Assembly (NCBI GenBank): GCA_947575475.1
Contig: CANPNN010000014.1
Coordinates: 1-16,121, forward strand
DNA length: 16,121 nt
From: an uncultured Pseudoflavonifractor sp.
GTDB lineage: Bacteria > Bacillota_A > Clostridia > Oscillospirales > Oscillospiraceae
Direction: 5' to 3'
The notes beneath the pieces were generated by a model, which worked only from the letters and a program-made list of their open reading frames with translations, was not told the DNA's origin and did no database searches. Positions 1-16,121 of the stretch are shown piece by piece. Both the position numbers and the translations under genes were made by a program. How positions within the stretch are numbered: the stretch's first letter is position 1; every line of letters begins with the position of its first letter.

Positions 1-91
1 CCCAGCCGCCGCAGCAGCACAGAAGCAGGATGATGATCAGAATGATCCAGCAGCAACCGCCGCCCCAACCGTTGTTGTTCCCACAGCACAT
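1..91 (-). CDS. Small Cys/Gly-rich single-span membrane protein (partial, 3' end outside window)
   Basis: The minus strand opens with an ATG at 91 and reads 30 codons off the left edge of the window without a stop. The residues begin MCCGNNNGWGGGCCW, then a short hydrophobic run (IILIIILLL, about residues 16-24), then CCCGGW. This is a Gly/Asn/Cys-rich head, a short membrane-spanning segment and another Cys/Gly cluster. Seven of the 30 visible residues are Cys. A GAGGTG ribosome site lies 8 bases upstream of the ATG on that strand, which supports the start. Tiny proteins of this composition are common in Clostridia and are usually left unnamed. I do not assign a function; metal binding or spore association would be guesses. 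The gene is divergent from mltG. The overlapping + frame at 30-248 has no family resemblance and is not called. Confidence 0.6.
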   Translation of the reverse strand, partial: MCCGNNNGWGGGCCWIILIIILLLCCCGGW

Positions 92-228
92 AGAAACTTC
101 ACCTCGTTGTTTATTTGACGCCCCGGAGATATGGAACCGTCTCCGTTTCGCCATCCGCAATATCCTATGCGTCTGCCCCACTTCTGGTTCCATTTCTCAG
201 GATGTTAAAATGTCAGGAGTGATTCCTC

Positions 229-1449: not shown

Positions 1450-2653
1450 GGCCATAGAACTCCTCTCCCCTGCCGGCGATATGGAGCGGCTCCAGATGGC
1501 GGTGGCCTATGGGGCGGACGCAGTGTACCTGGCGGGGCAGATGTACGGAATGCGCTCCTTCGCAGGGAACTTCAGCCGGGAGGAGCTGGAGCAGGCAGTC
1601 AGACTGTGCCGCCGCCATGGGGTGAAGGTCCATGTGACCTGCAACACCATGCCCCGAAATGAGGAGCTGGCCGGACTGCCTGACTACCTCTCTTTCCTGC
1701 AGGAGTTGGGGGTGGATGCCCTGATCATTGGCGATGCGGGGATACTGTCTCTCGCCAAACGCTATGCCCCCTCTCTCCCCGCCCATATGTCCACCCAGAT
1801 CGGCATCACTAACTATGCCGCTGCCCAGTTTTGGTATGATCAGGGGGCCCAGCGGGTCATCCTGGCCCGGGAGCTAACACTGGAGGAGATCCGGGAGATC
1901 TGCGCCAAGCGCCCCCAGGGGCTGGAGGTGGAGGCCTTTGTCCATGGGGCTATGTGCGTCAGCTTCTCCGGGCGCTGCGTTCTCAGCAACTACATGGCAG
2001 GCCGGGACGCCAGCCGCGGCTCCTGCGCCCAGCCCTGCCGGTATAAGTACGCCCTTATGGAGGAGCAGCGGCCTGGAGAGTTCTTTCCCGTGGAGGAGGA
2101 CGACCGGGGCACTTATATCTTTAACTCCAAGGATATGTGTATGATCGACCACATCCCGGAGCTTTTGGAGTCGGGGCTGGACAGCCTGAAGATCGAGGGC
2201 CGGGCCAAGTCGGCCTACTATGCCGCCATCGTCACCGGCGCCTACCGCCGGGGTATTGACGCCGCTTTGGCTGGAGAGCCGCTGGACCCGGTGTGGCGGA
2301 CCGAACTGGATAAGGTGAGCCACCGTCCCTATTCCGAGGGCTTCTACTATGGACGCCCCGAGCAGTACGTGGGAGACGCCCGGTACATCCGGGACTGGCA
2401 GGTATCCGCCATAGTCACCTCCTGCGCCCCTAACGGGCAGGCGGTCTGTTCTCTGCGGAACAAATTCCGCCAGGGCGAGACCCTGGAGCTGGTTGGACCT
2501 GGGGTACGCCCAGTTTCCTTTGTGGTGGAAGACCTGACGGATGGCAATGGCTTCCCCATAGAGGAAGCCCGGACGCCCCAGATGGCTCTGCGGCTCACGC
2601 TGCCCTGTCAAGCCTCTCCCCTTTCCATCCTTAGAAAGCAGGTGGAGCCATGA
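1442..2653 (+). CDS. Peptidase U32 family protein, TrhP-like tRNA uridine 5-hydroxylation protein
   Basis: Member of the U32 family. Its studied bacterial members (E. coli TrhP/YegQ, B. subtilis YrrN/YrrO) take part in prephenate-dependent 5-hydroxylation of uridine 34 in tRNA; RlhA does the same for 23S rRNA. The peptidase name is historical. The N-terminal half is a TIM-barrel-like domain starting with ELLSPAGDMERLQMAVAYGA. The U32 signature spans residues 164-182 (EAFVHGAMCVSFSGRCVLS), followed by RGSCAQPCR. Cysteines 172, 179, 195 and 199 are the likely iron-sulfur ligands. SLKIEGRAKS (248-257) is another family block. At 403 residues it is close to YrrO-type proteins. The ATG overlaps the mltG end by 8 bases, and its own stop overlaps the next start as ATGA, so translation is probably coupled. 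The exact RNA substrate is inferred from homologues. Confidence 0.9.
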   Translation: MGKAIELLSPAGDMERLQMAVAYGADAVYLAGQMYGMRSFAGNFSREELEQAVRLCRRHGVKVHVTCNTMPRNEELAGLPDYLSFLQELGVDALIIGDAGILSLAKRYAPSLPAHMSTQIGITNYAAAQFWYDQGAQRVILARELTLEEIREICAKRPQGLEVEAFVHGAMCVSFSGRCVLSNYMAGRDASRGSCAQPCRYKYALMEEQRPGEFFPVEEDDRGTYIFNSKDMCMIDHIPELLESGLDSLKIEGRAKSAYYAAIVTGAYRRGIDAALAGEPLDPVWRTELDKVSHRPYSEGFYYGRPEQYVGDARYIRDWQVSAIVTSCAPNGQAVCSLRNKFRQGETLELVGPGVRPVSFVVEDLTDGNGFPIEEARTPQMALRLTLPCQASPLSILRKQVEP

Positions 2654-3762
2654 AAAACCGCCGATACGACTACGATGTGCTCCGGGTCTGCTCCATGCTG
2701 GGGGTCATCTATCTCCATGTGGCGGCAGGGGCTTTGCGGAGCTGGAATTATCCTGTACTTTGGAACTTTTCCAATTTTTTTGCCTGCCTTTCCACCCCGG
2801 CGGTACCTCTGTTTTTCATGATGTCCGGAGCCCTGCTCCTAAAGGAAGAAAAAACCGCCGACCTGGGTCTGCTTTTTCGAAAGCGGATCCCCAAGGTTTT
2901 GGTCCCTCTTTTGACCTACTCAGCGGTGACCCTCCTTTATAGTGTGGTCCGGAACAATGCCGCCGGCGCCCTTGAAAGTCTTTCCCGGCTGCTGAATACC
3001 CCCGTCTCGGTCCCCTACTGGTTCCTCTACGCCCTCATCCCCATGTACCTCATCTCCCCCATGCTGAAGAAGATGGTGGATGGGCTGAGCGACGCCCACT
3101 GGAACTACATGATGGCCCTGTGGGTGGTCCTCACATTGGGACTCTATACCGTCCGCACCTTTGTCCCGGCGGAATATGAGCTGGTGTTTACCGAGCACTG
3201 GACCCTGAACCTGAATATGATCGGGGGCTATCTGGGCTACTTTCTGCTGGGAGCCTATCTGGAACGGTGGGAAAGGCTCCCCTCCCGAAAAATCCTGGTG
3301 GTTATTATTGCCGCCACTCTGGCGGTGAGCGTTCTGGGGACCCGGTGGGATACCTATACCAAGCTGATGTATCTGGACCGGTTCACCAACTATCTGACCC
3401 TCTTTACCTTCCTGCTCTCCGCCGCCATCTTCCTGCTGGCAAAATCCTGCCTGCGGGGTAAGGAGGAAAAGGGAAAGCTGCTGCCCCTTCTGTCCGGGGT
3501 ATCCTTTGCGGTCTATCTGCTCCATCCCCTTGCCATAGGGGCGGGAGAAAAGCTGTGGACCCTGCTTTTCGACACCATGGGACCGGCAACAGTTCTTCAG
3601 CAGTTGGGGTTCTATGCCGCCATCACCCTGGTCTGCATCCTTTCGGCGGTGATCCTGGCCTCCATCCCGGGGGTGTGCTATCTCTTTACTGGGCAGACCT
3701 ACGCCACCGCCTGCAAAAGCTGTAATCTGCAGGCTCTTTTTAGAAAGAAGGATATGATTTGA
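2650..3762 (+). CDS. Acyltransferase family 3 membrane protein
   Basis: Integral membrane O-acyltransferase of the OafA/WecH superfamily. These enzymes move acetyl or other acyl groups across or onto surface sugars and polymers. The 370 residues carry about ten hydrophobic segments. The first contains the family's R-x10-H pattern (Arg12 and His23 in LRVCSMLGVIYLH), His23 being the probable catalytic residue. PAVPLFFMMSGALLL and GVSFAVYLLHPLAIG are further typical AT3 blocks. The ATGA overlap with the upstream U32 gene and the TTGA overlap with the downstream lipoprotein gene place it inside a coupled operon headed by mltG. That context makes a cell-envelope acceptor plausible, but the sequence does not show which one. 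The last 15 or so residues (TACKSCNLQALFRKKDMI) form a short cytoplasmic tail. Confidence 0.88.
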   Translation: MKNRRYDYDVLRVCSMLGVIYLHVAAGALRSWNYPVLWNFSNFFACLSTPAVPLFFMMSGALLLKEEKTADLGLLFRKRIPKVLVPLLTYSAVTLLYSVVRNNAAGALESLSRLLNTPVSVPYWFLYALIPMYLISPMLKKMVDGLSDAHWNYMMALWVVLTLGLYTVRTFVPAEYELVFTEHWTLNLNMIGGYLGYFLLGAYLERWERLPSRKILVVIIAATLAVSVLGTRWDTYTKLMYLDRFTNYLTLFTFLLSAAIFLLAKSCLRGKEEKGKLLPLLSGVSFAVYLLHPLAIGAGEKLWTLLFDTMGPATVLQQLGFYAAITLVCILSAVILASIPGVCYLFTGQTYATACKSCNLQALFRKKDMI

Positions 3763-4580
3763 ATCAGAGAAAAGGGATCATTCCTCTTTTTTTGACAGGC
3801 CTTATCCTTCTGTTGACCGCCTGCTCCCCCCAACCTGTTGAGCTGGAGACCGCCTCTCCCCCTCCATCCCCCACTCCTACCTCCATTCCGGAGGAGACCG
3901 ACCCACCGGCCTGGACTGGACAGGCGGCAGATTTTACGGGAGAGTGGCACCGGACAGAGGGGTATATCGCTTGCCCCTCCACTATTGAGATCGCCAATCA
4001 GACCGAAACCGGCTTTGATTTCTCTGTAGAAGCCTATCACTACAGCCATACGGGCATGGCAGGTGGGGCCGCCTATTTTACCAGTGAAAACACCGCCTTT
4101 TGGCGCAATGACGACCCTTTTGACGACATCGCCACTGGCTGTCTTCTTTTCACCATGGAAAACGGCAGTCTGCAAATGGATGAGCTGGGCTGGCTCCCCT
4201 TTGGTATGAATGTTTCCACTTACGGAACTTACACTCTGGGCGAACCATCTTACTACACCAACGGCGTGATCGAGTCTCTTGGCCCGGACCGCATCTCTCT
4301 TTTGCAGGGTGTGGTTGGGGAGGATTATGAAACCTGCGTCGGTTTTCCTCTCTCCATCGGTTCTTTTGAGTTTTCAGAGGTAGAGAGTCCCAACGGTTCC
4401 GGCCTTTTTCTGGAGGGCTTTGTCCCCACCATGGGATATCAGCAGAAAATCTATTTCCGGGACGACGGGGCCGTCTGGGTCCAGTTTGCCCCTCTCGTCT
4501 ATTCCGGGAAATGCTATACCAACCGCCCCGGAGAGGATATCCCTGATTTTTTGTTGTTTGAAGCGGGGGAAAACAGTTGA
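3759..4580 (+). CDS. Predicted lipoprotein of unknown function
   Basis: A 273-residue exported lipoprotein. After a short basic start (MNQRKG) comes a hydrophobic signal and the lipobox LLTAC, placing the lipidated Cys at residue 22. A Pro/Ser/Thr/Glu-rich spacer follows (about 23-50). The mature part is rich in Tyr, Phe, Trp, Gly and Thr, and begins FTGEWHRTEGYIACPSTIEI, which looks like a beta-strand-rich barrel or sandwich; two internal repeats of this style cannot be excluded. I recognise no catalytic motif. The start is a TTG at 3759 whose last base overlaps the acyltransferase stop (TTGA), with AGAAAGAAGGA upstream at 3742-3752. No ATG in this frame lies near enough to include the signal peptide. 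It is the last gene of the mltG operon, so an envelope role is likely but unproven. Confidence 0.8.
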   Translation: MNQRKGIIPLFLTGLILLLTACSPQPVELETASPPPSPTPTSIPEETDPPAWTGQAADFTGEWHRTEGYIACPSTIEIANQTETGFDFSVEAYHYSHTGMAGGAAYFTSENTAFWRNDDPFDDIATGCLLFTMENGSLQMDELGWLPFGMNVSTYGTYTLGEPSYYTNGVIESLGPDRISLLQGVVGEDYETCVGFPLSIGSFEFSEVESPNGSGLFLEGFVPTMGYQQKIYFRDDGAVWVQFAPLVYSGKCYTNRPGEDIPDFLLFEAGENS

Positions 4581-4604
4581 CATCCCCGGAAAATGTGATA
4601 CAAT
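4577..4604 (+). promoter_or_regulatory. Sigma-A type promoter for the alaS T-box transcript
   Basis: A perfect -35 box TTGACA (4577-4582) is followed after 16 bases by TACAAT (4599-4604) with a TG extended -10 element at 4596-4597. Transcription would start near 4611, just before the T-box leader. The -35 box overlaps the TGA stop (4578-4580) of the upstream lipoprotein gene. Confidence 0.85.
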
Positions 4605-4610
4605 GATTTC

Positions 4611-4842
4611 CGCAATGACGAAGTCAAGTCCGTTATGCCGCGCATAAGCGAGAGGGGACGGTGAGAGCCCTCGGCGACACAGGCAGACAAGCCACTTCCG
4701 AGCGTTCCGGGAGACCGGAGGGCCCATCCCCCTTACCCGATGCAAATGAGATGCCCTGCCCTTCGGCATGGCAAATCAGGGTGGTACCGCGGAGCCGTCT
4801 ATCACGCTTCGCCCCTGAACCGACAGGGGCGGAGCGTTTTTT
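4611..4842 (+). promoter_or_regulatory. Alanine T-box leader (tRNA-sensing transcription attenuator)
   Basis: The leader contains the T-box core AGGGTGGTACCGCGG (4778-4792). Its TGGT can pair with an uncharged ACCA 3' end, matching the A discriminator of tRNA-Ala. Stem I can close by GAAGT (4620-4624) with ACTTC (4694-4698). A GCC alanine codon (4691-4693) lies directly 5' of that closing strand and is the likely specifier. AGAG and GGTGAGAG motifs (about 4651-4667) fit the distal part of stem I. An intrinsic terminator follows. Uncharged tRNA-Ala should stabilise the antiterminator and raise alaS expression. The 5' boundary is estimated from the promoter. Confidence 0.95.
4805..4842 (+). terminator. 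T-box attenuator terminator upstream of alaS
   Basis: The arms 4805-4817 and 4824-4836 form a 13-bp stem (one G-T pair) with the loop AACCGA, followed by six T (4837-4842). It sits directly after the T-box core, so it is the conditional terminator of the leader and not an operon end. Confidence 0.92.
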
Positions 4843-4881
4843 GTTGCCCACCCCACATTTTTGATTGGAGGTATCTTCACC

Positions 4882-7550
<2,669 letters not shown>

Positions 7551-7554
<4 letters not shown>

Positions 7555-7727
7555 CCCTTCCCCAGGACCCTTTCATTCTTCTCAGCTATGTGAACACCCA
7601 GCTCCGGGACAATTTCTCCTCTCTGGAGGCCCTCTGTGACGATGCCGGGGTTCCGGTGGCCGAGGTGGCCTCCAAACTGGAGCAGGCCGGATTTCAGTAT
7701 GATCCGGAGCTTGGACAATTTCGATAA
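7551..7727 (+). CDS. DUF4250 domain-containing small protein
   Basis: A 58-residue protein starting MTLPQDPFILLSYVNTQLRD and ending QAGFQYDPELGQFR. The opening LPxDPFxLLSxxNTxLRD, a central LCDDAGV helix-turn-helix-like stretch and the closing Y-D-x-E-L-x-Q-F-R match the DUF4250 family of short Firmicute proteins, whose function is unknown. The length is typical for the family. The ATG overlaps the alaS stop as ATGA, and the alaS 3' end (AGAAGGTGGGAA) supplies a GGTGG ribosome site, so the two are probably translated together. The stop is directly followed by a strong terminator, making this the last gene of the alaS unit. The helical pattern VAEVASKLEQAGF resembles a small winged-helix or DprA-type fold, but DNA binding is only a guess. 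Confidence 0.9.
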
Positions 7728-7770
7728 CAGAGAGCGGCGGAGGCTTTTGCTTCCGCCGCTCTCTGTTTTT
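7728..7770 (+). terminator. Rho-independent terminator of the alaS-DUF4250 unit
   Basis: Arms 7728-7744 and 7749-7765 form a 17-bp stem (one G-T pair) with a TTTT loop and a T5 tail (7766-7770). It begins on the base after the DUF4250 stop codon. Confidence 0.95.
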
Positions 7771-7830
7771 CCTCCTTCGGCATAAAATAGGGATGGTTTA
7801 GTCAACATAGCGGTAAAGGAGGAATGACTG

Positions 7831-8805
7831 ATGTGTACAGCGGCGACTTACCTTACCAAGGATTTCTATTTCGGACGGACTTTGGACTATGATTTTTCCT
7901 ATGGGGAAGAGCTGGCGGTGACCCCCCGGCGTTACCCCTTTCTTTTCCGGCAGGCCGATCCCCTGTTCCGGCACTACGCCATCATCGGCATCGCCCACCT
8001 GGAGGACGGCATCCCCCTCTTCTACGACGGGATGAACGAGAGGGGGCTGTGCATGGCGGGGCTCAATTTTGTGGATAACGCGGTCTACCACGACTCCCTC
8101 CCTGGCAAGGACAACATCGCCAGCTTTGAGTTTATTCCCTGGGTGCTGGCCCAATGCGCCTCGGTAAAGGAGGCCCGGCGGCTGCTGGAGCGGATCAACC
8201 TGACCCCCGAGGCTTTTCGGAAGGACCTTCCCCCCGCTCAGCTCCACTGGATGATCGCCGACCGGGAGGAGGCCATCGTGGTGGAGTCGGTCCGGGCGGG
8301 GGTCATGGTCTATGACAATCCCGTGGGGGTCATGACTAACAATCCCCCCTTCCCCGACCAGCTCTTTGCCCTGAACAACTTCATGGCCATCTCCCCCAGG
8401 GCCCCCAGCAATCACTTTTCCGACAAGCTGGACCTGCGGACTTACAGCCGCGGCATGGGGGCCCTGGGCCTGCCCGGGGACCTGTCCTCCCAGTCCCGGT
8501 TCGTCCGGGCCGCCTTCACCCGCCTCAACTCCCAGTCCGGCCCCTCCGAGGAGGAGAGCGTCAGCCAGTTCTTCCACATCCTGGGCTCAGTGGCCCAGCA
8601 GCGGGGCTGCTGTCAGCTGGACAACGGCAGCTATGACGTCACCCTATACACCTCCTGCTGTAACGCCTCCAAGGGCATCTACTATTACACCTCCTACGAA
8701 AACTGCCAAATCTCCGCCGTGGACCTCCACCGCTGCGAGCTGGACAGCGGTGGGCTGATCCGCTTTCCTCTGGTGACAGGCCAGCATATTCTCTGGCAGA
8801 ATTGA
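7831..8805 (+). CDS. Choloylglycine hydrolase family protein, probable bile salt hydrolase
   Basis: N-terminal-nucleophile hydrolase (linear amide C-N hydrolase), most likely splitting glycine- or taurine-conjugated bile acids in the gut. The start is fixed by chemistry: Met1 must be removed to expose Cys2 (MCTAATY), and AAAGGAGG lies 8 bases upstream. Expected active-site residues are visible: Cys2, Arg16 and Asp19 in FGRTLDYDFSYGE, Asn79 in AGLNF, Asn170 in GVMTNNP, and Arg223 in GLPGDLSSQSRF. YTSCCNASKGIYYYTSYEN (273-291) closely resembles the equivalent stretch of clostridial bile salt hydrolases. The 324 residues match the family. No signal peptide is present, as expected for a cytoplasmic enzyme. 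Penicillin V acylase activity in the same superfamily is the main alternative; the GLPGDxxxxSRF and YTSC blocks favour bile salts. A TAAAAT -10-like box (7783-7788) lies upstream without a convincing -35. The gene seems to stand alone after the alaS terminator. Confidence 0.88.
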   Translation: MCTAATYLTKDFYFGRTLDYDFSYGEELAVTPRRYPFLFRQADPLFRHYAIIGIAHLEDGIPLFYDGMNERGLCMAGLNFVDNAVYHDSLPGKDNIASFEFIPWVLAQCASVKEARRLLERINLTPEAFRKDLPPAQLHWMIADREEAIVVESVRAGVMVYDNPVGVMTNNPPFPDQLFALNNFMAISPRAPSNHFSDKLDLRTYSRGMGALGLPGDLSSQSRFVRAAFTRLNSQSGPSEEESVSQFFHILGSVAQQRGCCQLDNGSYDVTLYTSCCNASKGIYYYTSYENCQISAVDLHRCELDSGGLIRFPLVTGQHILWQN

Positions 8806-8817
8806 GCCCCTCTCCCC

Positions 8818-8846
8818 TTGCATTTTCCCCCCTCCCTGGTTAAAAT
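8818..8846 (+). promoter_or_regulatory. Candidate promoter for the lipoprotein/cupin pair
   Basis: TTGCAT (8818-8823), 17 bases, then TAAAAT (8841-8846). It lies in the 70-base gap after the bile salt hydrolase gene, with a likely transcription start near 8853, ahead of the AGAGGGG ribosome site of the next gene. The boxes match at 4 of 6 and 5 of 6 positions. Confidence 0.5.
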
Positions 8847-8875
8847 AGAGAAAACAGGCAAAAGAGGGGATCTTT

Positions 8876-9608
8876 GTGAAGAGGTTTTTGACTGCGGCGC
8901 TGTGTCTTCTTCTCCTGACCGGCTGTGCGAAACAGCCAGACAAGGCGGCGGAGACCCCGGCTTCCACCCCCTCCCCATCCCCTGTTCCCATTTCCAGTAC
9001 TACCCCCTCTCCCAGCCCCTCCGCCCAGCCCTCCCCGGAACCCACGCTCCTTCGCCGCCCTGCTGGCGGGGGATACTTCCGGCATCCTGGACCCGGAGGA
9101 CCGAAAGCATGTGGACTGGCTGTTCTCCAATGTGACTACCCCCAGCTTCAACCCCATGTTTGAGATCAGTTCCCTCTGGGTCTACACCCTTCTGGACCTG
9201 GATGGGGACGGGGAGGACGAGCTCTTTCTCCACCCCAGGGACGCCCAGTATACCCACCTGATCTTTGACGCCCGACCCGAGGAGTTGGAGCTGGTCGGCC
9301 AAAAAACGATTCGTATGTCTGATTGGACCGATCCCCTGTTGGACGGCCGCATTCTGGAGACCCTGCATTACGACGGGATGTACACCTACACCATCCGGGA
9401 CCTATCCTCACAGGAAGAAAACGTCTGGACCTACCGCTATGAGGACCGCCTCTACTATGTGGGGGAAGAGCCCGAATCCCCCGCCTGGACCCACAACGAC
9501 CAGCCCGTCACCGAGATGGAATTTGAGGATTTTCTTCTCTCCTGTCAGGAGAAAAGAATTCCCTACTGGAATACGGTACATTTTCACTTTGACAAGGAGG
9601 AAAGCTGA
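8876..9608 (+). pseudogene. Lipoprotein gene with an apparent frameshift in its Ser/Pro linker
   Basis: The 5' part, from a GTG at 8876 with AGAGGGG upstream, encodes a textbook lipoprotein start: MKRFLTAALCLLLLTGC (Cys17), then a Thr/Pro/Ser linker to about residue 57. That frame then becomes meaningless and stops at 9163. The natural continuation, SFAALLAGD onward, lies in the next frame (from about 9048) and runs to a TGA at 9606-9608. One surplus base, or two missing bases, explains it. The exact position is ambiguous within 8936-9050 because both frames are open and Pro-rich; C9047 is the simplest candidate. Repaired, the protein would have about 243 residues. The body carries DLDGDGEDE (9195-9221), a calcium-loop-like Asp/Gly motif common in such lipoproteins, and no enzyme signature. 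The cause may be a sequence error, a real mutation or, less likely, programmed frameshifting. The stop abuts the cupin start codon. Confidence 0.75.
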
Positions 9609-9938
9609 ATGAACATCGACTTCAACGCCATCCCGGAAACCGTCATCCCCCACATGCGGGGCGGGGAGAAGGAGGTCCGGGCCCACATGTTCACCGACGA
9701 GCTGGGCAAGATCATGAAGGGCCGCCTCATCCCCGGGGCCTCCATCGGCCTCCACACCCACGAGACCAGCAGTGAGATCATCTACATCCTCAGCGGCACA
9801 GGCAAAATTCTATACGACGACGGCTGCGAGGCCCTCTCCCCCGGCTCCTGCCACTACTGCCCCAAGGGGCACGCCCACAGCCTCATCAATGACAGCGGCG
9901 CCGATCTGGAATTCTTCGCCGTAGTGCCGGAGCAATAA
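9609..9938 (+). CDS. Small single-domain cupin protein
   Basis: A 109-residue cupin_2 protein. Motif 1 fits G(x)5HxH(x)4E(x)6G at residues 43-63, with His49, His51 and Glu56 as metal ligands. Motif 2 is G79(x)5PxGxxH(x)3N, with Pro85, Gly87, His90 as the fourth ligand, and Asn94. These proteins bind a divalent metal and act as small isomerases, dioxygenases or ligand sensors; the substrate cannot be read from the sequence. AAGGAGG lies at 9594-9600 inside the end of the preceding lipoprotein gene, and the ATG follows that gene's stop without a gap, so the two were probably cotranscribed and coupled. Because the ribosome site is strong, the cupin may still be translated although the upstream gene is frameshifted. 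Confidence 0.88.
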   Translation: MNIDFNAIPETVIPHMRGGEKEVRAHMFTDELGKIMKGRLIPGASIGLHTHETSSEIIYILSGTGKILYDDGCEALSPGSCHYCPKGHAHSLINDSGADLEFFAVVPEQ

Positions 9939-10179
9939 GCAGAAACGAGTTATCATCCACCCGCGTAGTCTGTGGTATTTCAGATGCAGGCAAAGCCCTA
10001 TGTTTACGGCGCACAGATGAGGCCCGCAAGTACGCTCTGCCAGTTGCTTAGGCCCGATTCACACAAAATATATCTAACTTGTTTTGTTGCTGACTGCACT
10101 TGGGGAACAAGGGGTCTTTCCCTTCCTTATCGCTGACGCGCTTTTGACCCACCGGTCAGCCAGTGGGTTTCATAGTACA
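9939..10179. other. 240-base stretch with no recognised gene; possible structured RNA
   Basis: No coding frame with a credible start or family match is present. Nested complementarity exists in the left half: GCGTA (9963-9967) with TACGC (10031-10035), enclosing TCTGTG (9969-9974) with CACAGA (10012-10017), the inner arms separated by 37 bases that include GGCAAAGCC. A second hairpin pairs GACCCAC (10146-10152) with GTGGGTT (10163-10169). The stretch ends in the strong terminator at 10180-10211, as a small RNA or an untranslated 3' region would. I checked it by eye against SRP, tmRNA, RNase P, 6S and common riboswitch cores and found no convincing match. Confidence 0.35.
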
Positions 10180-10211
10180 GAAAGGGGGCGCTTTTTTAAG
10201 CGCCCCCTTTC
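10180..10211. terminator. Bidirectional terminator between the cupin region and the YtxH-like gene
   Basis: Arms 10180-10193 and 10198-10211 form a perfect 14-bp stem (GAAAGGGGGCGCTT against its complement) with a TTTT loop. The A3/T3 flanks inside the stem allow use on either strand; on the + strand CCCTTTTA follows. It lies four bases beyond the stop of the minus-strand gene ending at 10216. Confidence 0.8.
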
Positions 10212-10215
10212 CCTT

Positions 10216-10389
10216 TTAGTGCAAACCCATCTCGTCAGACAGGTCCTCCATCACTTGCCCCACCGTCGTCATGGCTTTTTCTGCCGCTCTTTTTACATTG
10301 GTCTTTTTTCGGGGAGCCATTATGACTCCCATAGCCATACCTGCTACGACGCCCATGGTCATACCTTTGGCAAACTCGTGCTGCTTCAT
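10216..10389 (-). CDS. YtxH-like small glycine-zipper membrane protein
   Basis: A 57-residue protein read leftward from the ATG at 10387-10389. It begins MKQHEFAKGMTMGVVAGMAM, then GVIMAPRKK. Residues about 9-25 form a Gly/Met/Val-rich single membrane span ending in the APRKK stop-transfer cluster, followed by an amphipathic helix (VKRAAEKAMTTVGQVMEDL). This layout is that of YtxH-type small membrane proteins of Firmicutes; their role, often linked to stress or the envelope, is poorly known. AGAGGTGG lies about 6 bases upstream of this ATG, which is why the longer frame starting at 10482 is rejected: its extra 31 residues (Arg/Lys-rich, no ribosome site) do not fit the family. It is divergent from the dihydroorotase-like gene and convergent with the cupin region. 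Confidence 0.78.
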   Translation of the reverse strand: MKQHEFAKGMTMGVVAGMAMGVIMAPRKKTNVKRAAEKAMTTVGQVMEDLSDEMGLH

Positions 10390-10464
10390 CTGTTTCCACC
10401 TCTTTTTCTCTTTTTGAGAAGCCTCCGCTCTCACTTTTATTATGACCGAAACTCGGAAAAACCA

Positions 10465-10496
10465 TTGCGAAAATTTGCCCAATATTCTATAATATT
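10465..10496 (+). promoter_or_regulatory. Strong sigma-A promoter for the dihydroorotase-like operon, with AATATT repeats
   Basis: TTGCGA (10465-10470), 17 bases, then a perfect TATAAT (10488-10493); start expected near 10500. The self-complementary hexamer AATATT occurs at 10481-10486 and again at 10491-10496, exactly one helical turn apart and flanking or overlapping the -10 box, a possible operator. Confidence 0.82.
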
Positions 10497-10532
10497 TGTA
10501 GGTACTTGTCTGCGGAAGGAGGATGTGCCGGA

Positions 10533-11810
10533 ATGGGGATCTTGATCCGACGTGGACGGCTGGTAGACCCAGTAAGCGGTATCGGCGGTGTGTTGGATAT
10601 TTTAGTGGAAAATGGAAAAATTGCCGTCATTGGCAGCGACCTTTCCGCTCCGGACTCTCAAGTGATCGACGCTGCCGGGCTCACCGTCTGTGCCGGGCTG
10701 GTGGACCTTCACGCCCATTTGATGGAGCCTGGCTTTGAATACCGGGAAACCATAGCTTCCGGCGCTCGGGCTGCAGCCGCCGGTGGATTCACCTCGATTG
10801 CTTGTATGCCGGATACTATCCCGCCCATTGACGTCCCCGGAGGGATTGCTTACATCAAGAAGGCCGGCTCTCAAGCCGGAGGAGCCCGGGTGATTCCGGT
10901 CGCCGCCTTGTCTAAAGGCCGTCAGGGACAGGAACCCTGTAACTATGAGGAATTGAAGTCCGCAGGAGCGGCGGCTCTCTCTGATGCCGCTCCCATCCGC
11001 AATGCCAATCTGCTCCGGGACGCCATGATCCTGGCCCACCGACAGGGGCTTACGGTGCTTTCCTGCTGCGAGGATCCGGATCTGGGACAAAATTTTTCCA
11101 TCAATGAGGGCCGAGTCTCCCGGCAGCTGCGCATCCCGGGTCGACCCGCTATTGCGGAAGAGCTATATGTCATGCGGGAGGCCATGCTGGCTGAAGAGAC
11201 CGGTGCAGCCGTCCATATTTGCCGGATCTCCACCGCCAAATCGGTATCCATCGTACGGCGATTTAAGAAAAAAGGCGTCCAGATCACCTGCGAGACCTGC
11301 CCCCAGTATTTTACTTTCACCGAGGATGAAGTGCTGCAGCAAGGTCCTCCCGCCCGGTTGGATCCCCCGCTGCGAACTCCCGCCGATGTAGACGGCATCC
11401 TCGAAGGGCTGAAGGACGGCACTATCGACGCCATTGCTTCAGGACATTCTCCTCTGGCCGAGGTCGAGACCTCCCGCCCTCTCGTCCAAGTCCCCGCTGG
11501 GATCTCCGCTTTGGAGACTACGCTGGCCTCCTCCCTCACCGCCCTTTACCACACCGGCGAGATGAATCTTTCTGATATTTTACGGAAACTGACCATCAAT
11601 CCCGCCCACATTTTACGGCTACCCAACGCAGGACGGCTGGCCATCGGGCTGGATGCCGACCTTATCGTTTTTGACCCTGATGAGGAGTGGGTAGTGATCC
11701 CCAAGAACTTCTATTCCTTCGGGCAGAATACTCCCTTTGCCGGAAAGGTCCTGAAAGGCAAGGTCAAATATACCATGGTAGGCGGAAAGTTCGTCCACCA
11801 AAGCAATTGA
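10533..11810 (+). CDS. Dihydroorotase-like amidohydrolase homologue lacking metal ligands and catalytic Asp
   Basis: A 425-residue homologue of class I dihydroorotase (PyrC), which closes carbamoyl-aspartate to dihydroorotate. Framework kept: the small beta domain split across both ends, GLVDLHAHLMEPGFEYRET (55-73) with His60 and His62, the AAAAGGFTSIACMP block (80-93), SD151, and a C-terminal NPAHILRLPNAGRLAIGLDA. Key residues changed: the substrate Arg of HLREPG is Met64, MPNT is MPDT (Asp94), the metal His before CED is Cys178, the His of the CHxST block is Arg231, TPHH is CPQY (256-259), and the catalytic Asp of ATDHAPH is Gly304 in ASGHSPL. Normal dihydroorotase activity is therefore very unlikely. 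The frame is intact and begins at the ATG at 10533, with AAGGAGG 10 bases upstream. It is the first gene behind a strong promoter. A pseudoenzyme acting as a partner subunit, as known for inactive DHOase homologues bound to aspartate transcarbamoylase, is the best analogy; altered chemistry is possible. Confidence 0.85.
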   Translation: MGILIRRGRLVDPVSGIGGVLDILVENGKIAVIGSDLSAPDSQVIDAAGLTVCAGLVDLHAHLMEPGFEYRETIASGARAAAAGGFTSIACMPDTIPPIDVPGGIAYIKKAGSQAGGARVIPVAALSKGRQGQEPCNYEELKSAGAAALSDAAPIRNANLLRDAMILAHRQGLTVLSCCEDPDLGQNFSINEGRVSRQLRIPGRPAIAEELYVMREAMLAEETGAAVHICRISTAKSVSIVRRFKKKGVQITCETCPQYFTFTEDEVLQQGPPARLDPPLRTPADVDGILEGLKDGTIDAIASGHSPLAEVETSRPLVQVPAGISALETTLASSLTALYHTGEMNLSDILRKLTINPAHILRLPNAGRLAIGLDADLIVFDPDEEWVVIPKNFYSFGQNTPFAGKVLKGKVKYTMVGGKFVHQSN

Positions 11811-11822
11811 AAGGGGTCAAAT

Positions 11823-12161
11823 ATGAAAAAAAGTTATCTCTTGGGCGTCTTGTGCTCCCTTCTTCTTGGGTTATTGACCTGGAAGCTTCTCTTTCCTCAA
11901 ATCTCTGGACTGAACGGTATCTACATTTTCTTTCTGGGCTTTTTCTGCCTGTGGACTGCCGTCGCTATTCTTCTGAAGCTCCTCAGCCCCGATACACCCC
12001 GCGCCTACCGTTGGGGGTACGCCGCAATATTCTTTCTGCTGTTTCTCAATCAACTGGTCCAGGCCTTTTTTCACTTTAACTCCTACACCCTGATCAATAT
12101 CTTACTGCTGTCTTTCATCTATCTCCTCCAGCATTTGGAGCATCGTCAGAAAAACGACTAA
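11823..12161 (+). CDS. Small four-helix membrane protein of unknown function
   Basis: A 112-residue hydrophobic protein with four predicted membrane segments, at about residues 5-24, 32-54, 64-83 and 88-105, and short loops. The ends are charged (MKKS at the start, HLEHRQKND at the end), which suggests both termini are cytoplasmic. No motif is recognised; it does not resemble a uracil transporter or any named small family I can place. The ATG lies 12 bases after the stop of the dihydroorotase-like gene with AAGGGG between them, and the next gene follows after 27 bases, so it belongs to the same transcript. Its place between two pyrimidine-pathway pseudoenzymes raises the possibility of a membrane anchor or sensor partner, which is inference only. 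Confidence 0.8.
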   Translation: MKKSYLLGVLCSLLLGLLTWKLLFPQISGLNGIYIFFLGFFCLWTAVAILLKLLSPDTPRAYRWGYAAIFFLLFLNQLVQAFFHFNSYTLINILLLSFIYLLQHLEHRQKND

Positions 12162-12188
12162 ATTTTCTACATAGAAAGGACTGGTCTT

Positions 12189-12971
12189 ATGTCCTTTGAC
12201 CATCTGCAAAGCCTTATCAAAACCACCAAATGTCCTGTTTCCGTGGTGCTGGCTCCCGCCGAAAAAGAAACCGCAGAAACTTTTCAGCCCTTTGCCCTAT
12301 CTCTTATAGATACTCTTCGCGGCGTAGTTCCCGCCCTGCAATTTCCCTTGGGAAACTATATCCGGTTAGGCTGGCGAGGCTTGAAAACTTTGGAGGAACT
12401 TTTGACCCATGCCAAAAAGCAGGGACTTTTTACGATCCTGGATGCCCCGCTTTGTCAGGTCCCTCCCTCCCCCCTGCCCGATTTTTCCGCCGACTGCATC
12501 ATCATCAGCGGTTACTTGGGCGCCGATATTCTGCGCCCTGTGCTGGAGGCGGGAAAACAAACCGATACATGTCTTTTTGTACAGGCCCACACCGTCAATC
12601 CCAGCGCCGGAGAGCTTCAGGATCTGGTGGCAGGAGATCGGCTCGTCTACCAGGTGGTTGGCGACCTTGCCCAGCGGCTGGGCAAAAATGATCTGGGGCA
12701 GCTGGGATATAGCCGGATCGGCATCATGGCCGAAGGCTTATACCCCTCTGACCTTCGTTCCCTGCGAAAACGTTGGGAGCAGAGCTTTTTGATGGTTTCC
12801 GGTCCTTCTGAGGATGTCCGCTATGCCTTTGACAAATATGGGCGGGGAGCTGTGGTCAGTACTGCCGCCCCCATTCAGGCCGCCCGGGAACAAAACGGAG
12901 ACCTCTCCGCCGCCCTGACCAGCCTCAAAGCCCTTCGAGATGAGCTAAAGCAGTACATTACCATCCTCTGA
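12189..12971 (+). CDS. Orotidine-5'-phosphate decarboxylase (PyrF type 2)-like protein lacking the catalytic residues
   Basis: A 260-residue homologue of type 2 OMP decarboxylase, the last step of UMP synthesis. Recognisable blocks in order: MSFDHLQSLIKTTKCPVSVV (1-20), the barrel strand VVPALQFPLGNY (46-57), AKKQGLFTILDA (75-86), GYLGADILRPVLEA (108-121), HTVNPSAGELQDL (134-146), LGYSRIGIMAEGLYP (172-186) and YGRGAVVSTAAPI (217-229). What is missing: the catalytic DxKxxD is D85-A-P-L-C-Q90, so Lys and the second Asp are gone; the Asp of the N-terminal GLD is Ala22; the phosphate-binding PGYGAQGG loop is collapsed to SGPSED; and the Arg of NSSRGI is absent. About 40-45 residues, mainly the active-site loop region, are deleted compared with the usual 300 or so. 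The frame is intact, with GAAAGGA 8 bases before the ATG. Decarboxylation is not expected. Confidence 0.8.
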   Translation: MSFDHLQSLIKTTKCPVSVVLAPAEKETAETFQPFALSLIDTLRGVVPALQFPLGNYIRLGWRGLKTLEELLTHAKKQGLFTILDAPLCQVPPSPLPDFSADCIIISGYLGADILRPVLEAGKQTDTCLFVQAHTVNPSAGELQDLVAGDRLVYQVVGDLAQRLGKNDLGQLGYSRIGIMAEGLYPSDLRSLRKRWEQSFLMVSGPSEDVRYAFDKYGRGAVVSTAAPIQAAREQNGDLSAALTSLKALRDELKQYITIL

Positions 12972-13013
12972 ACCCTATCCCTAAATCATACCAGGAAAGA
13001 AGGGCCCGCCCCT

Positions 13014-14135
13014 ATGACCCGAATCTATCTTATCCGTCACGCCCAGTCCGAGGGCAACCTGTACCGCCGAGTTCTTGGGTGGTATGATGGGCACGTGACC
13101 GGATTGGGCCGAAAACAGATCACCGCCCTGGAAGATCGCTTTCGGGATATTTCTGTCCAGGCCGTCTATTCCAGCGACCTGAGCCGTGCACAGGAGACCG
13201 CACAGGCTATTGCTCTTCCCAAAAACCTTGAACTCCACCCAGATCCCGCCTTTCGCGAGATCCATCTGGGGGAACTGACCAATATCCCGTACGGAGACTT
13301 TACTTACCATCACCCTGATCTCTACAAATCCTTCTTTTCCTTTTCTCCCCATTGGGCTCCCAAAGGCGGCGAGACCTTTCAGCAGGTTGCAAACCGGATC
13401 GCTCCCGCCTTTTTTCGGGTAGCCGCAGACCACCCCGGGGAATCCGTCGCCATTTTCTCCCACGCCATGGCTATCCACTGTCTTCAGGCTGCCATCCGCG
13501 GCAAGCACCCCAGCGAGGTAAAAGAACTTCCCTTGGGCGAGAATACTGCCGTCTCCTGCTATGAGATCCAGGGGGACAGATTCCGAATCCTCTTTGAGAA
13601 TGACGCCTCCCATCTTACTGAAGAGCTTACCTCTGCCAAACAGCGAAGCACACCGCCTTTGGTCTGGTTTCAGGCCTTAGATCTGAGCAAAGCGGAGGAC
13701 GCTGAATTTTACTGTGCCGCCCGCCAGGACGCTTGGTTGGTGGTCCACGGCTCTCTTCAAGGCTTTGATGGTCTCGGTTTCCTCGCAGATGCCCGGGATC
13801 AGCTTCAATGGGATCCCCGGGCTCTTCAGCGGGTCATGTGCCGTGGCCGGACCGTGGGACTGATACAGCTGGATACCCTTCAGGACGTGCAGGAGGATGC
13901 CGGATATATCCCCTTTCTTTATCTTCGGCCCGACTACCGCGGCCAGGGAATCGGAGCGCAGCTTCTGGGGCAGGCGATAAGTGTATACCGCCCTATGGGC
14001 CGCAAGTACTTGAGGCTTCTCTGCGACCCTGCAAATGAGCCTGCCCAGCGGTTCTACCGCCGCTACGGTTTTGTGAAGAAAGGCCAGTCCCCCGGAGCGT
14101 TAGGCCCCTTGGATCTGCTGGAAATGTCCCTTTGA
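13014..14135 (+). CDS. Histidine phosphatase - GNAT acetyltransferase fusion protein
   Basis: A 373-residue two-domain protein. Residues 1-200 are a phosphoglycerate-mutase-like histidine phosphatase: LIRHAQSEGN with the phospho-acceptor His9 after Arg8, Arg58 in SSDLSRAQETA, Glu82 in REIHLGELT, and the second His150 in FSHAMAIH, so the full catalytic set is present. Residues about 215-373 are a GNAT domain: RPDYRGQGIG (305-314) is the acetyl-CoA pyrophosphate loop (motif A), and NEPAQRFYRRYGF (341-353) is the usual motif B end. The linker is about 15 residues. Substrates of either half are unknown; the phosphatase part is closest in style to CobC/GpmB-type enzymes that act on small phosphoesters. 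The start ATG at 13014 has AAGAAGG about 10 bases upstream. It lies 42 bases after the decarboxylase-like gene with no terminator between, so it is the likely fourth gene of that operon. Confidence 0.9.
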   Translation: MTRIYLIRHAQSEGNLYRRVLGWYDGHVTGLGRKQITALEDRFRDISVQAVYSSDLSRAQETAQAIALPKNLELHPDPAFREIHLGELTNIPYGDFTYHHPDLYKSFFSFSPHWAPKGGETFQQVANRIAPAFFRVAADHPGESVAIFSHAMAIHCLQAAIRGKHPSEVKELPLGENTAVSCYEIQGDRFRILFENDASHLTEELTSAKQRSTPPLVWFQALDLSKAEDAEFYCAARQDAWLVVHGSLQGFDGLGFLADARDQLQWDPRALQRVMCRGRTVGLIQLDTLQDVQEDAGYIPFLYLRPDYRGQGIGAQLLGQAISVYRPMGRKYLRLLCDPANEPAQRFYRRYGFVKKGQSPGALGPLDLLEMSL

Positions 14136-14198
14136 CCTCCTCTTTTTCCCCCCGATTTGGCAAAAACAGAGATTTTATATTTTCTTCTTCCTACAGCC

Positions 14199-14227
14199 TT
14201 TACGAATCCTTTCGACTCCTATATAAT
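14199..14227 (+). promoter_or_regulatory. Promoter for the Na/Pi cotransporter gene
   Basis: TTTACG (14199-14204), 17 bases, then a perfect TATAAT (14222-14227); start expected near 14234. It lies downstream of the first in-frame TTG of the long open frame (14157), supporting the later start at 14298. Confidence 0.7.
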
Positions 14228-14297
14228 AGATGCTGACCGTTGGTTCTTTTTCCTTGTGTCCAGCGTTGCCGCATCAGATAATGGGGAGGCCAGGCCC

Positions 14298-16100
14298 TTG
14301 AACGCAACAAATGTGATTTCTATGTTGGGTTCCATTGCACTGTTCCTGTTTGGTATGTCCACCATGACCGACGGTCTGGCCCAGCTTTCCAGCGGACGAT
14401 TAGAGGGCATCCTGGAAAGGCTGACCAACAATGTCTTTAAGGGAGTTCTGCTGGGAGCCCTGGTCACCGCTATTATCCACTCCTCTGCCACCACTACCGT
14501 TATGTGTGTGGGCTTTGTCAATGCGGGAGTGATGAAGCTGGAGCAGACGGTGGGTATCATCATGGGCGCCAACATCGGTACCACCGTTACCGCCCAGTTC
14601 CTCCGTCTGGCCAGTATTTCAGAAAACTCCAATCCCATTCTGACAGCCCTTCAGCCCGCCATTCTGGGTCCGGTGCTGGCTGTTGTGGGCATTATCCTCT
14701 ATATGTTCATCAGCGGAGGAAAGAAGAAAAGCGTCGGCCAAGTAGTCATTGGCATGGGGCTTCTCTTTATCGGCATGAACTCTATGACCTCCGCAGTGGC
14801 CCCCCTTCAAAATGAGCCATGGCTTGCCGATCTGTTCACCGCTTTTACTAATCCCGTACTGGGTATGCTGGTAGGCGCTGTCCTTACCGCCATTTTGCAA
14901 AGCTCCACCGCTTTCACCGGAATCCTCCAGGCCTTGAGTACCACCGGCGTAGTCCGATTCAATATGGCCATCCCCCTCATTATGGGCCAGAATATCGGCA
15001 CTACCCTCACCGCCGTTCTGTCCAGCGCAGGCGCCAATAAAAACGCGAAGCGTACCGCTTTGATCCATCTGTTCTTCAATGTGATCGGTTCGGTATTCTT
15101 TCTGATTTTGTTCTATGCCGGAAACGCCGTCATCCACTTCGATTTTTGGGAAAACATTATGGATATGGGCACCATCGCCAACTTCCATCTGATTTTTAAT
15201 CTTGCCTGTACCACACTGCTCCTCCCCTTCCACAAACACCTTGTTCGTCTGGTGGAAAAGCTGGTTCCTGGCGAAGCCATTGCTCTGAAGGATGTTTCCG
15301 TGTTAGACGAGCGGTTCCTGTCTACCCCCTCGGTGGCTTTGGAGCGCTCTCACGATGCCGTGATCCGCATGGGGACATATGCTCTCAACAACTACCGACT
15401 GGCTGTAGAGCTTTTAAAGCATTATGACCCCAAAAAGCTGGAACGCCTTAATGAGACCGAGGTCGCCCTGGACAAGATGGAAAATGCCTTGGATAACTAT
15501 CTGGTAAAGCTCACCGATCGGGCCCTGAGCCCTCAGGACAGCGCCCATGTCTCTGAGCTTCTCCATACCCTCAGCGACTTTGAACGGATCGGCGACTATG
15601 CCGTTAATGTGGCGGAGAGTGCCACCGCCCTATATAATAAGGGCATCGTTTTTTCCCCAGAGGCCGCCAAGGAGATGGACTCCCTTACCTGTGCGGTAGA
15701 TGAAGCAATTCAGAAGGCTCTGGACTGCTATCGGGAGCGTTCCTTTGACCTGGCAATTCAGGTGGAACCCTTAGAAGAAGTGGTGGACCTGATGAAGGAT
15801 GAGCTTCGGGCACGGCATATAGAACGTGTCAAGACAGGCTCCTGTACCATCGAACAGGGGACCCAGTTCCTGGAACTGCTCATTAATCTGGAGCGGATCT
15901 CCGATCACTGTTCCAACATCGCCATCGTCATTTTGCGGCAGACTGCTCCCAAGGATGACCTGGTCCACACAGATACCCACGCTTACACCCACGAGCTCCA
16001 CCACGGTCATGACCCTCTCTTTGAGCAGATGTATGCAGAAAGCAAGGCCAAGTATTATGCGCCTTTGCAGGAACTTCAGGAATTATCGGTAAAGGAATGA
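14298..16100 (+). CDS. Na/Pi cotransporter family protein with C-terminal PhoU domain (NptA-like)
   Basis: Sodium-coupled phosphate transporter of the NptA/PNaS family, 600 residues. The membrane half (about 1-315) holds two inverted repeats, each with a substrate motif and a Gly-rich signature: HSSATTT (61-67) with GANIGTT (90-96), then QSSTAFT (201-207) with GQNIGTT (230-236). The first repeat has His61 where Gln is usual. The cytoplasmic half (about 345-555) is a PhoU-like helical bundle with the two metal-binding blocks FERIGDY (428-434) and LERISDH (531-537). A His-rich stretch (557-571, six His) follows. I chose the TTG at 14298: GGGGAGG lies 9 bases upstream, the promoter is just before it, and MNATNVISMLGSIALFLFGM matches the family N-terminus. 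The extra 47 residues from a TTG at 14157 would start upstream of that promoter. The PhoU domain suggests phosphate-dependent control of transport. Confidence 0.92.
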   Translation: MNATNVISMLGSIALFLFGMSTMTDGLAQLSSGRLEGILERLTNNVFKGVLLGALVTAIIHSSATTTVMCVGFVNAGVMKLEQTVGIIMGANIGTTVTAQFLRLASISENSNPILTALQPAILGPVLAVVGIILYMFISGGKKKSVGQVVIGMGLLFIGMNSMTSAVAPLQNEPWLADLFTAFTNPVLGMLVGAVLTAILQSSTAFTGILQALSTTGVVRFNMAIPLIMGQNIGTTLTAVLSSAGANKNAKRTALIHLFFNVIGSVFFLILFYAGNAVIHFDFWENIMDMGTIANFHLIFNLACTTLLLPFHKHLVRLVEKLVPGEAIALKDVSVLDERFLSTPSVALERSHDAVIRMGTYALNNYRLAVELLKHYDPKKLERLNETEVALDKMENALDNYLVKLTDRALSPQDSAHVSELLHTLSDFERIGDYAVNVAESATALYNKGIVFSPEAAKEMDSLTCAVDEAIQKALDCYRERSFDLAIQVEPLEEVVDLMKDELRARHIERVKTGSCTIEQGTQFLELLINLERISDHCSNIAIVILRQTAPKDDLVHTDTHAYTHELHHGHDPLFEQMYAESKAKYYAPLQELQELSVKE

Positions 16101-16121
16101 ACAAAAAGAAGTCCCGGGTTT

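Follow-up and report, generated by a model that had tools for sequence, protein, structure and literature searches.

Members of the amidohydrolase superfamily with a non-catalytic use are known among the CRMP/dihydropyrimidinase-related proteins. A bacterial case is found in Pseudomonas aeruginosa, in which an inactive PyrC' chain is needed for aspartate transcarbamoylase (ATCase) activity (PMC7053772). None of the papers listed in literature searches, which covered titles and abstract openings and few subscription papers, deals with an inactive PyrF, whether alone or together with an inactive PyrC. In this work we analyzed a stretch of 16,121 nucleotides from an uncultured Pseudoflavonifractor sp. 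(GenBank assembly GCA_947575475.1, contig CANPNN010000014.1, positions 1 to 16,121 of the forward strand; referred to as the window), which carries a four-gene module with homologues of dihydroorotase (PyrC) and orotidine 5'-monophosphate decarboxylase (OMPDC, PyrF). The reading that we favor, with a probability of roughly 0.6, is that this module is the native pyr operon after losing its role in the pathway, with PyrC and PyrF kept as non-catalytic pseudoenzymes that probably do a second job beyond catalysis. The module is composed of the following elements:

10465-10493, plus strand: sigma-70-type promoter of the module, TTGCGA-17-TATAAT, a pattern conserved across the genus
10533-11810, plus strand: pseudo-PyrC open reading frame (ORF), 425 amino acids (aa), or 434 aa if read from a TTG at 10506
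11823-12161, plus strand: ORF of a 112-aa membrane protein of no known family
12189-12971, plus strand: pseudo-PyrF ORF, 260 aa, orthologue of type-2 OMP decarboxylase
13014-14135, plus strand: ORF of a histidine phosphatase (branch 1)-GNAT fusion, 373 aa, with His_Phos_1 and GNAT domains

The gaps between the four genes are 12, 27 and 42 bases, and inspection of the window's ORF list by eye revealed no pyrB, pyrK, pyrD or pyrE. The window PyrC is assigned to the amidohydrolase/dihydroorotase family (TIGR00857, 344 bits, above the cut-off of 279). Of the six metal ligands that class I dihydroorotases have, three or four are missing from it. The residues are numbered after a Bacillus-type dihydroorotase, in which we take D151, H178, H231 and D304, besides H59 and H61, to be the metal and catalytic ligands. 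The SDDG pair has lost one Asp by deletion (whether D151 or its neighbor counts as the deleted one is a choice of alignment), and the metal site also shows the changes H178C, H231R and D304G. R63M, N93D and H308L were identified as well, and the HxH metal motif (H59, H61) is retained as HAH. The window PyrF scores 84 bits against the OMPDC family TIGR02127, under the cut-off of 110.6, and has neither the DxKRxD catalytic center nor the PGYGAQGG phosphate loop. The window-type dead PyrF has 260 aa vs about 307 aa in the active type, and in the alignment it is missing three segments: one that follows GLDP, the loop with DxKRGD and the loop with PGYGAQGG.

The AlphaFold2 models, whose input alignments also held active relatives and are therefore biased toward the ancestral fold, predict for PyrC a dihydroorotase fold (predicted local distance difference test, pLDDT, 85.8; predicted template modeling score, pTM, 0.89; low confidence at residues 66-70, 184-204 and 273-278) and for PyrF a (beta/alpha)8 barrel with eight strands (pLDDT 86.7, pTM 0.87). 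The best PDB matches are the Aquifex dihydroorotase 3d6n_A for PyrC (template modeling score, TM, 0.92) and the OMPDC 3r89_A for PyrF (TM 0.85 by query length); human CRMP structures are also among the Foldseek matches of the PyrC model. Judged from residues and models together, both proteins look catalytically dead, the fold of PyrC and the barrel of PyrF being predicted to be intact. An initial annotation of the window, made from the letters alone, had described two degenerate pyr homologues, and the missing metal ligands of PyrC and the missing DxKRxD of PyrF agree with it. The four-gene layout, the single promoter, the gaps and the absence of pyrB, pyrK, pyrD and pyrE that it described are likewise borne out by the ORFs, the profile searches and the promoter pattern of the genus.

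A contig scan with the window PyrC as query yielded 254 relatives, and the best 80 of the 254 were used as loci. The full PyrC signature of 12 positions (metal ligands, substrate contacts and neighbors) is present in 76 of these 80, the exceptions being L001 and L002, which are dead, L004 with two changes and L073 with one; L001, L002 and L004 are also loci in which the phosphatase-GNAT gene directly follows pyrF. Among 206 PyrC rows, 163 are canonical, 38 are dead (at least three changes) and five are partial (one or two positions), and the 204 PyrF rows comprise 138 canonical ones, 64 with at least three changes and two partial ones. Dead rows (33 PyrC and 57 PyrF; the five genome copies as well as G004 and its protein rows were excluded) were compared with 90 active PyrC and 68 active PyrF rows, locus rows being excluded. 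The 33 dead PyrC clusters include the window's own, and some are nearly identical; they share the Asp deletion (100%), G153A (94%) and H231R (91%). The residue at the position of H178 is C, Y, F or H and that at H308 is L, Y, C or F, and the HxH motif is retained in most dead rows. Six newly conserved columns were identified in dead PyrC, only one of them polar (Q43). In a tree with outgroups, 16 dead PyrC rows form one clade (100/99) with P0192 and P0172 basal, and in a wider tree the window lies inside a dead clade of 36 rows. By these trees and alignments, dead PyrC arose once: an ancestor shared by every dead row lost the Asp, and further ligands were lost later. Further dead PyrF groups were found in metagenomes (P0058, P0074, P0083, P0087 and P0097; P0101 and P0117).

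The position of the module was established by comparison with the 80 loci and with the two genes that flank it:

10216-10482, minus strand: divergent YtxH-like small protein, under the Pfam cut-off, a conserved neighbor and marker of the ancestral locus
14157-16100, plus strand: Na/Pi cotransporter with PhoU domains, a conserved neighbor not assigned to the module

The genes pyrC, pyrF, pyrK and pyrD occur together in 68 of the 80 loci, in 66 of which the phosphatase-GNAT gene stands after pyrD; in nine of the 80 the contig ends 0-481 bases past pyrF. In only three loci (L001, L002 and L004) does the phosphatase-GNAT gene directly follow pyrF, 50-51 bases on, as it does in the window after 42 bases. 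The nearest relatives all have the order YtxH, promoter, pyrC, pyrF, phosphatase-GNAT, Na/Pi transporter, whether their loci are active or dead, and the upstream YtxH gene and the downstream Na/Pi transporter gene match those of the window in L001-L005 and L009. Because gene order and flanks match those of the relatives' loci, the window segment is, on this comparison, the genus's own pyr operon in its original place, minus pyrK-pyrD; the ancestral order is pyrC-[membrane protein]-pyrF-pyrK-pyrD-phosphatase/GNAT. The initial annotation had regarded the genes as a duplicated pyr segment. This was rejected, owing to the synteny with the native operon and to the single PyrF of this type in each of the five sister genomes (G001, G002, G010, G011 and G014), which means that those five genomes hold no duplicate. 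The second PyrCs of the sister genomes are only 34-40% identical to that of the window and lie in other operons. The conserved linkage that the annotation expected in relatives is present in the five sister genomes, and the module of these five and the 33 dead PyrC clusters show more than a chance finding.

The distribution of the module was surveyed in 16 species genomes of the genus of G001, all of them drafts without stated completeness. The native pyr operon is intact in six (G003, G005, G006, G007, G013 and G016), and the dead module is present in the five sister genomes. In G004 (L004 4116-6358) pyrKD is gone from the locus, and PyrC carries two and PyrF three active-site changes, both being 81-94% identical to the active members of the genus; its PyrC (P0159) groups among the active PyrCs in the tree with outgroups. 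G004 represents an early stage of the decay of the operon, and G004 and G012 look like losses separate from the main dead clade. In G012 (L153 7294-8202) the native pyrC is gone, and a separately decayed PyrF (DVQSGD for DVKRGD) lies near the phosphatase-GNAT gene.

The pathway itself was searched for in the same genomes. pyrB was found above cut-off in 11 of them, pyrD (TIGR01037) in 12 and pyrE in 12, and all three are below cut-off in G004, G010, G014 and G015 of the 16; weak sub-cut-off matches do exist in such genomes, three of those in G015 being pyrB-like. In G002 only pyrB is missing, with pyrD and pyrE above cut-off, and has another, distinct pyrC-pyrK-pyrD set. The gene upp is above cut-off in 15 of the 16, including G004, G010, G014 and G015. 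Two sister genomes, G001 and G011, carry a second pyr operon:

L126 6285-14794, L093 and L081, oriented opposite to the ribosomal genes: second pyr operon in the rplA-rplJ gap, without carA

In G011 it reads pyrC2-carB-pyrK2-pyrD2-pyrF1-pyrE2-pyrB2, on the opposite strand between rplA and rplJ. The same genes occur on two contigs in G001, with rplJ beside pyrC2. The PyrF of the G011 operon is of the short type (238 aa), and the PyrC2 of the second operon has an active-looking site. Synonymous distances between G001 and G011 are 0.52-0.85 for the second operons vs 0.75-1.23 for the native genes (rplA 0.33, rplJ 0.30); because the former are close to the latter, these data make it likely that a single insertion took place before G001 and G011 diverged. 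Related second operons are found in G009, G012 and G017, and the operon regions of G012 and G017 have no rplA or rplJ, so that the operon sits elsewhere there. In G014, only 264 bp separate rplA from rplJ, the insertion site is empty and no second PyrC was found, and the module is still present; by this layout G014 would have lost the insertion or never had one. Nor is there an insertion at this site in G004, G007 and G012. Displacement by the second operon was rejected as the only cause of the loss, since G014 and G004 have an empty site and no pyrB, pyrD or pyrE above cut-off, and loss without a present replacement therefore also occurs. The module is thus retained in genomes that have a second pyr operon (G001 and G011) as well as in G014, where no pathway was found. 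Because it stays in G014 with the empty site and with no pyrB, pyrD or pyrE above cut-off, and given the dN/dS values below, we consider that the two genes are not pseudogenes and do not encode an obligate scaffold of the pathway enzymes. The latter had been one of the functions suggested by the initial annotation, and it is weakened accordingly.

Selection was assessed by the pairwise ratio of nonsynonymous to synonymous substitutions (dN/dS, NG86 method). Dead PyrC gave 0.07-0.25 (15 pairs among the window, G014, G001, G010, G011 and G002) vs 0.10-0.20 for active PyrC (15 pairs), and dead PyrF of the window's subclade (window, G014 and G001) gave 0.138, 0.167 and 0.170 vs 0.075-0.215 for active PyrF (15 pairs), single ratios being rough because many dS values approach or exceed 1. 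Every dead row shares the Asp deletion, and the PyrC distances therefore accumulated after PyrC had died. In simulations of neutral change at 0.25-0.5 substitutions per site, a mean of 4-10 in-frame stops accumulated and 0-10 of 500 runs remained free of stops. By region, PyrC is strongly relaxed only at 301-325, the DHAPH loop (identity 0.66 in dead vs 0.89 in active proteins), the difference being at most 0.1 elsewhere, and dead PyrF is retained at 141-160 (0.83 vs 0.89 in active) and relaxed in its first half and at its end. From the open frames, dN/dS and the simulation, neutral pseudogenes were rejected for PyrC and, less firmly, for PyrF. A dN/dS near 1, which the initial annotation had named as a sign of mere decay, was not observed, and the PyrC values indicate purifying selection of about the strength seen in active PyrC.

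Two further proteins belong to the module. Protein 4 has His_Phos_1 and GNAT domains that are both above their cut-offs, and it is full length in 15 of the 16 genus genomes; in G017, where pyrC and pyrF are lost, only a match to its C-terminal (GNAT) part was found (L156, about 7463-7921). We infer that this protein is the first candidate partner of the pseudoenzymes, because its gene directly follows that of pseudo-PyrF in the window and in all five sister genomes. It is also present in G009 and G015 (partially in G017), where pyrC and pyrF are lost, and is thus not dependent on them everywhere. The 112-aa protein shows three hydrophobic stretches in a Kyte-Doolittle scan, not the four transmembrane segments given in the initial annotation, and had no family match. 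It is retained in G014, G010 and G011, a weakly similar ORF is found in G002, and ten clusters of it were found in the protein database. As an essential part of the module it is unsupported, given these ten clusters and its absence from the locus of G001.

Several explanations other than retained pseudoenzymes were considered. The most serious, although we regard it as unlikely, is slow decay, in which the operon has no function, the genes are on their way out and the intact ORFs are transient. It would account for the graded series within one genus, from intact operons through the early decay of G004 and the dead module to pyrF only in G012 and the loss of both genes in G009, G015 and G017, and also for the faster evolution of the dead genes. 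However, the PyrC dN/dS of 0.07-0.25 was maintained over a divergence younger than the shared Asp deletion, and none of six PyrC and none of six PyrF in the dead group is truncated, whereas neutrality at 0.5 substitutions per site per lineage would give about 10 and 7 stops, respectively. The 33 open-frame PyrC clusters also speak against decay, with the bias that the protein database has open frames only. A structural subunit for ATCase of the PyrC' type, as in Pseudomonas, is supported by the shared fold and the like nature of the loss, and pyrB is present in the second operon of G001 and G011. Nevertheless, there is no pyrB beside the module, G014 yielded no match to pyrB and has nothing at the site of the second operon, G010 and G002 also have no pyrB match (their genomes are possibly incomplete), the second operon supplies a PyrC2 of its own whose site looks active, and the retained dead PyrF would be left unexplained, which makes this explanation very improbable.

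Hardly more probable is that the proteins have come to sense nucleotides or pyrimidine intermediates as ligands, the latter being a task that the initial annotation had also suggested. Their folds bind carbamoyl-aspartate/dihydroorotate and UMP/OMP, and the HxH of PyrC is retained in most dead rows, but R63, N93 and H308 of PyrC and the Lys-Asp center and phosphate-binding loop of PyrF are gone, most of the lost ligand-site positions vary among the dead proteins, and the persistence of the module in G014 weakens sensing of pathway intermediates further. New catalysis in remodeled sites, to which we give as little credit as to the ATCase subunit, would fit the replacements that are near fixation in the 33 clusters (H231R, the Asp deletion and G153A), but the variable positions H178 and H308 are as expected of an unused site, and newly conserved columns with a polar residue are limited to one of six. 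The initial annotation was thus right about the pseudoenzymes and their linkage and wrong about the duplication, and its proposed functions are partly weakened.

It is important to mention that several observations weigh against the retention of PyrC and PyrF as pseudoenzymes in their native operon. The module is dispensable, since G009, G015 and G017 lack both genes and G012 has only a dead pyrF (four of 16 species), and the membrane protein was not found at the module locus in G001. The 12 dead PyrF pairs outside the window's subclade reach dN/dS values of 0.26-0.48. The dead proteins evolve faster than their active relatives, about two times for PyrC and four to five times for PyrF: relative to the Na/Pi gene, the mean amino-acid distance (six dead and 10 active pairs) is 1.44 (1.06-1.72) in dead vs 0.65 (0.40-1.30) in active PyrC, and 3.10 vs 0.56 in PyrF. 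As the relative distance of the phosphatase-GNAT protein is also up (2.32 vs 1.68), a part of this speed-up is an effect of the yardstick. Beyond the YtxH gene, the window has a cupin gene, a bile salt hydrolase gene and alaS, and the sigma-like gene of the relatives is absent (the names alaS and sigma were assigned by eye). Finally, no rplA match was found in the G010 and G002 assemblies, so that the pyr genes missing there may have fallen into assembly gaps; G010, taken as a second firm case of a module without the pathway, was withdrawn for this reason, and G014 is the sole firm case among the module bearers, in a comparison of draft genomes.

By the sequences, the native operon has lost pyrK-pyrD; PyrC first lost the Asp of its metal site in one ancestor and then further ligands, and PyrF its catalytic center and loops, while both folds are predicted to have stayed. 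If PyrC and PyrF are indeed retained as pseudoenzymes, the two proteins may act as folded, non-catalytic scaffold or regulatory subunits, probably via surfaces that the active enzymes already had, and an older second job may have been exposed once the catalytic job was taken over or lost. A broader and more tentative proposal, which we hold to be possible although the odds are against it, is that in this bacterial family both PyrC and PyrF have an ancient, conserved function that is neither catalytic nor tied to pyrimidine synthesis, and that, once a second operon took over the pathway or the pathway was lost, catalysis was shed and the module kept together with the phosphatase-GNAT protein. 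Such a function would predict what is seen outside the window's lineage, where PyrF is dead yet retained in G012 and in several metagenome groups.

As for the promoter, a scan of the single sequence is weak (five sites in the window vs 2.6 +/- 1.6 in shuffles), and its conservation across the genus gives better support: T[ATG]GC[GT]A-16..18-TATAAT lies at most 260 bases upstream of pyrC in 13 of the 13 genus sequences examined. Right after the promoter, an attenuator-like GC-rich hairpin with a T run was found under a strict rule in nine of the 13 genus leaders, namely in all six intact operons (e.g. L003, upstream of 10001), in G004 and in the dead-module genomes G014 and G002. The same feature is present in 35 of 69 other loci vs 0 of 65 shuffled genus leaders. 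Weaker hairpins were seen by eye in G001, G010 and G011, and none is present in the window leader (10494-10532, between promoter and pyrC). A strong terminator-like hairpin of 14 pairs, listed on the plus strand at 10180-10211, lies past the 3' end of the YtxH-like gene. The bile salt hydrolase mentioned above is a choloylglycine hydrolase (7831-8805; 452 bits vs the NCBIfam cut-off of 350) encoded directly downstream of alaS.

Two enzymes of one essential pathway, encoded side by side, would here have turned into selected pseudoenzymes. The active, half-decayed, dead and lost states within one genus make the catalytic and non-catalytic roles of housekeeping enzymes separable, and if the old second function is real, the genus would be a natural experiment that uncovers a non-catalytic role of PyrC and PyrF. 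There is also a consequence for annotation: the dead PyrC is above the dihydroorotase cut-off and its dead relative P0149 carries the name dihydroorotase, so that automatic pathway calls could be wrong here.

Compared with known systems, pseudo-PyrF resembles type-2 PyrF (TIGR02127) in its orthologous locus, its barrel fold and the block GELQD..GDRLVYQV.GDL, and differs from it in lacking the DxKRxD center and the phosphate loop and in scoring below the family cut-off. The CRMP proteins are eukaryotic and derived from dihydropyrimidinase, and have no OMPDC partner, unlike pseudo-PyrC. The inactive PyrC'/pDHO of the Pseudomonas class A2 ATCase is, like pseudo-PyrC, a conserved protein that has lost its zinc ligands and kept its fold (PMC7053772). 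However, PyrC'/pDHO is tied to PyrB, whereas pseudo-PyrC has no pyrB nearby and persists in G014 without a pyrB match; here the native operon, its role lost, encodes a dead PyrC and a dead PyrF as a pair that is kept independently of the pathway.

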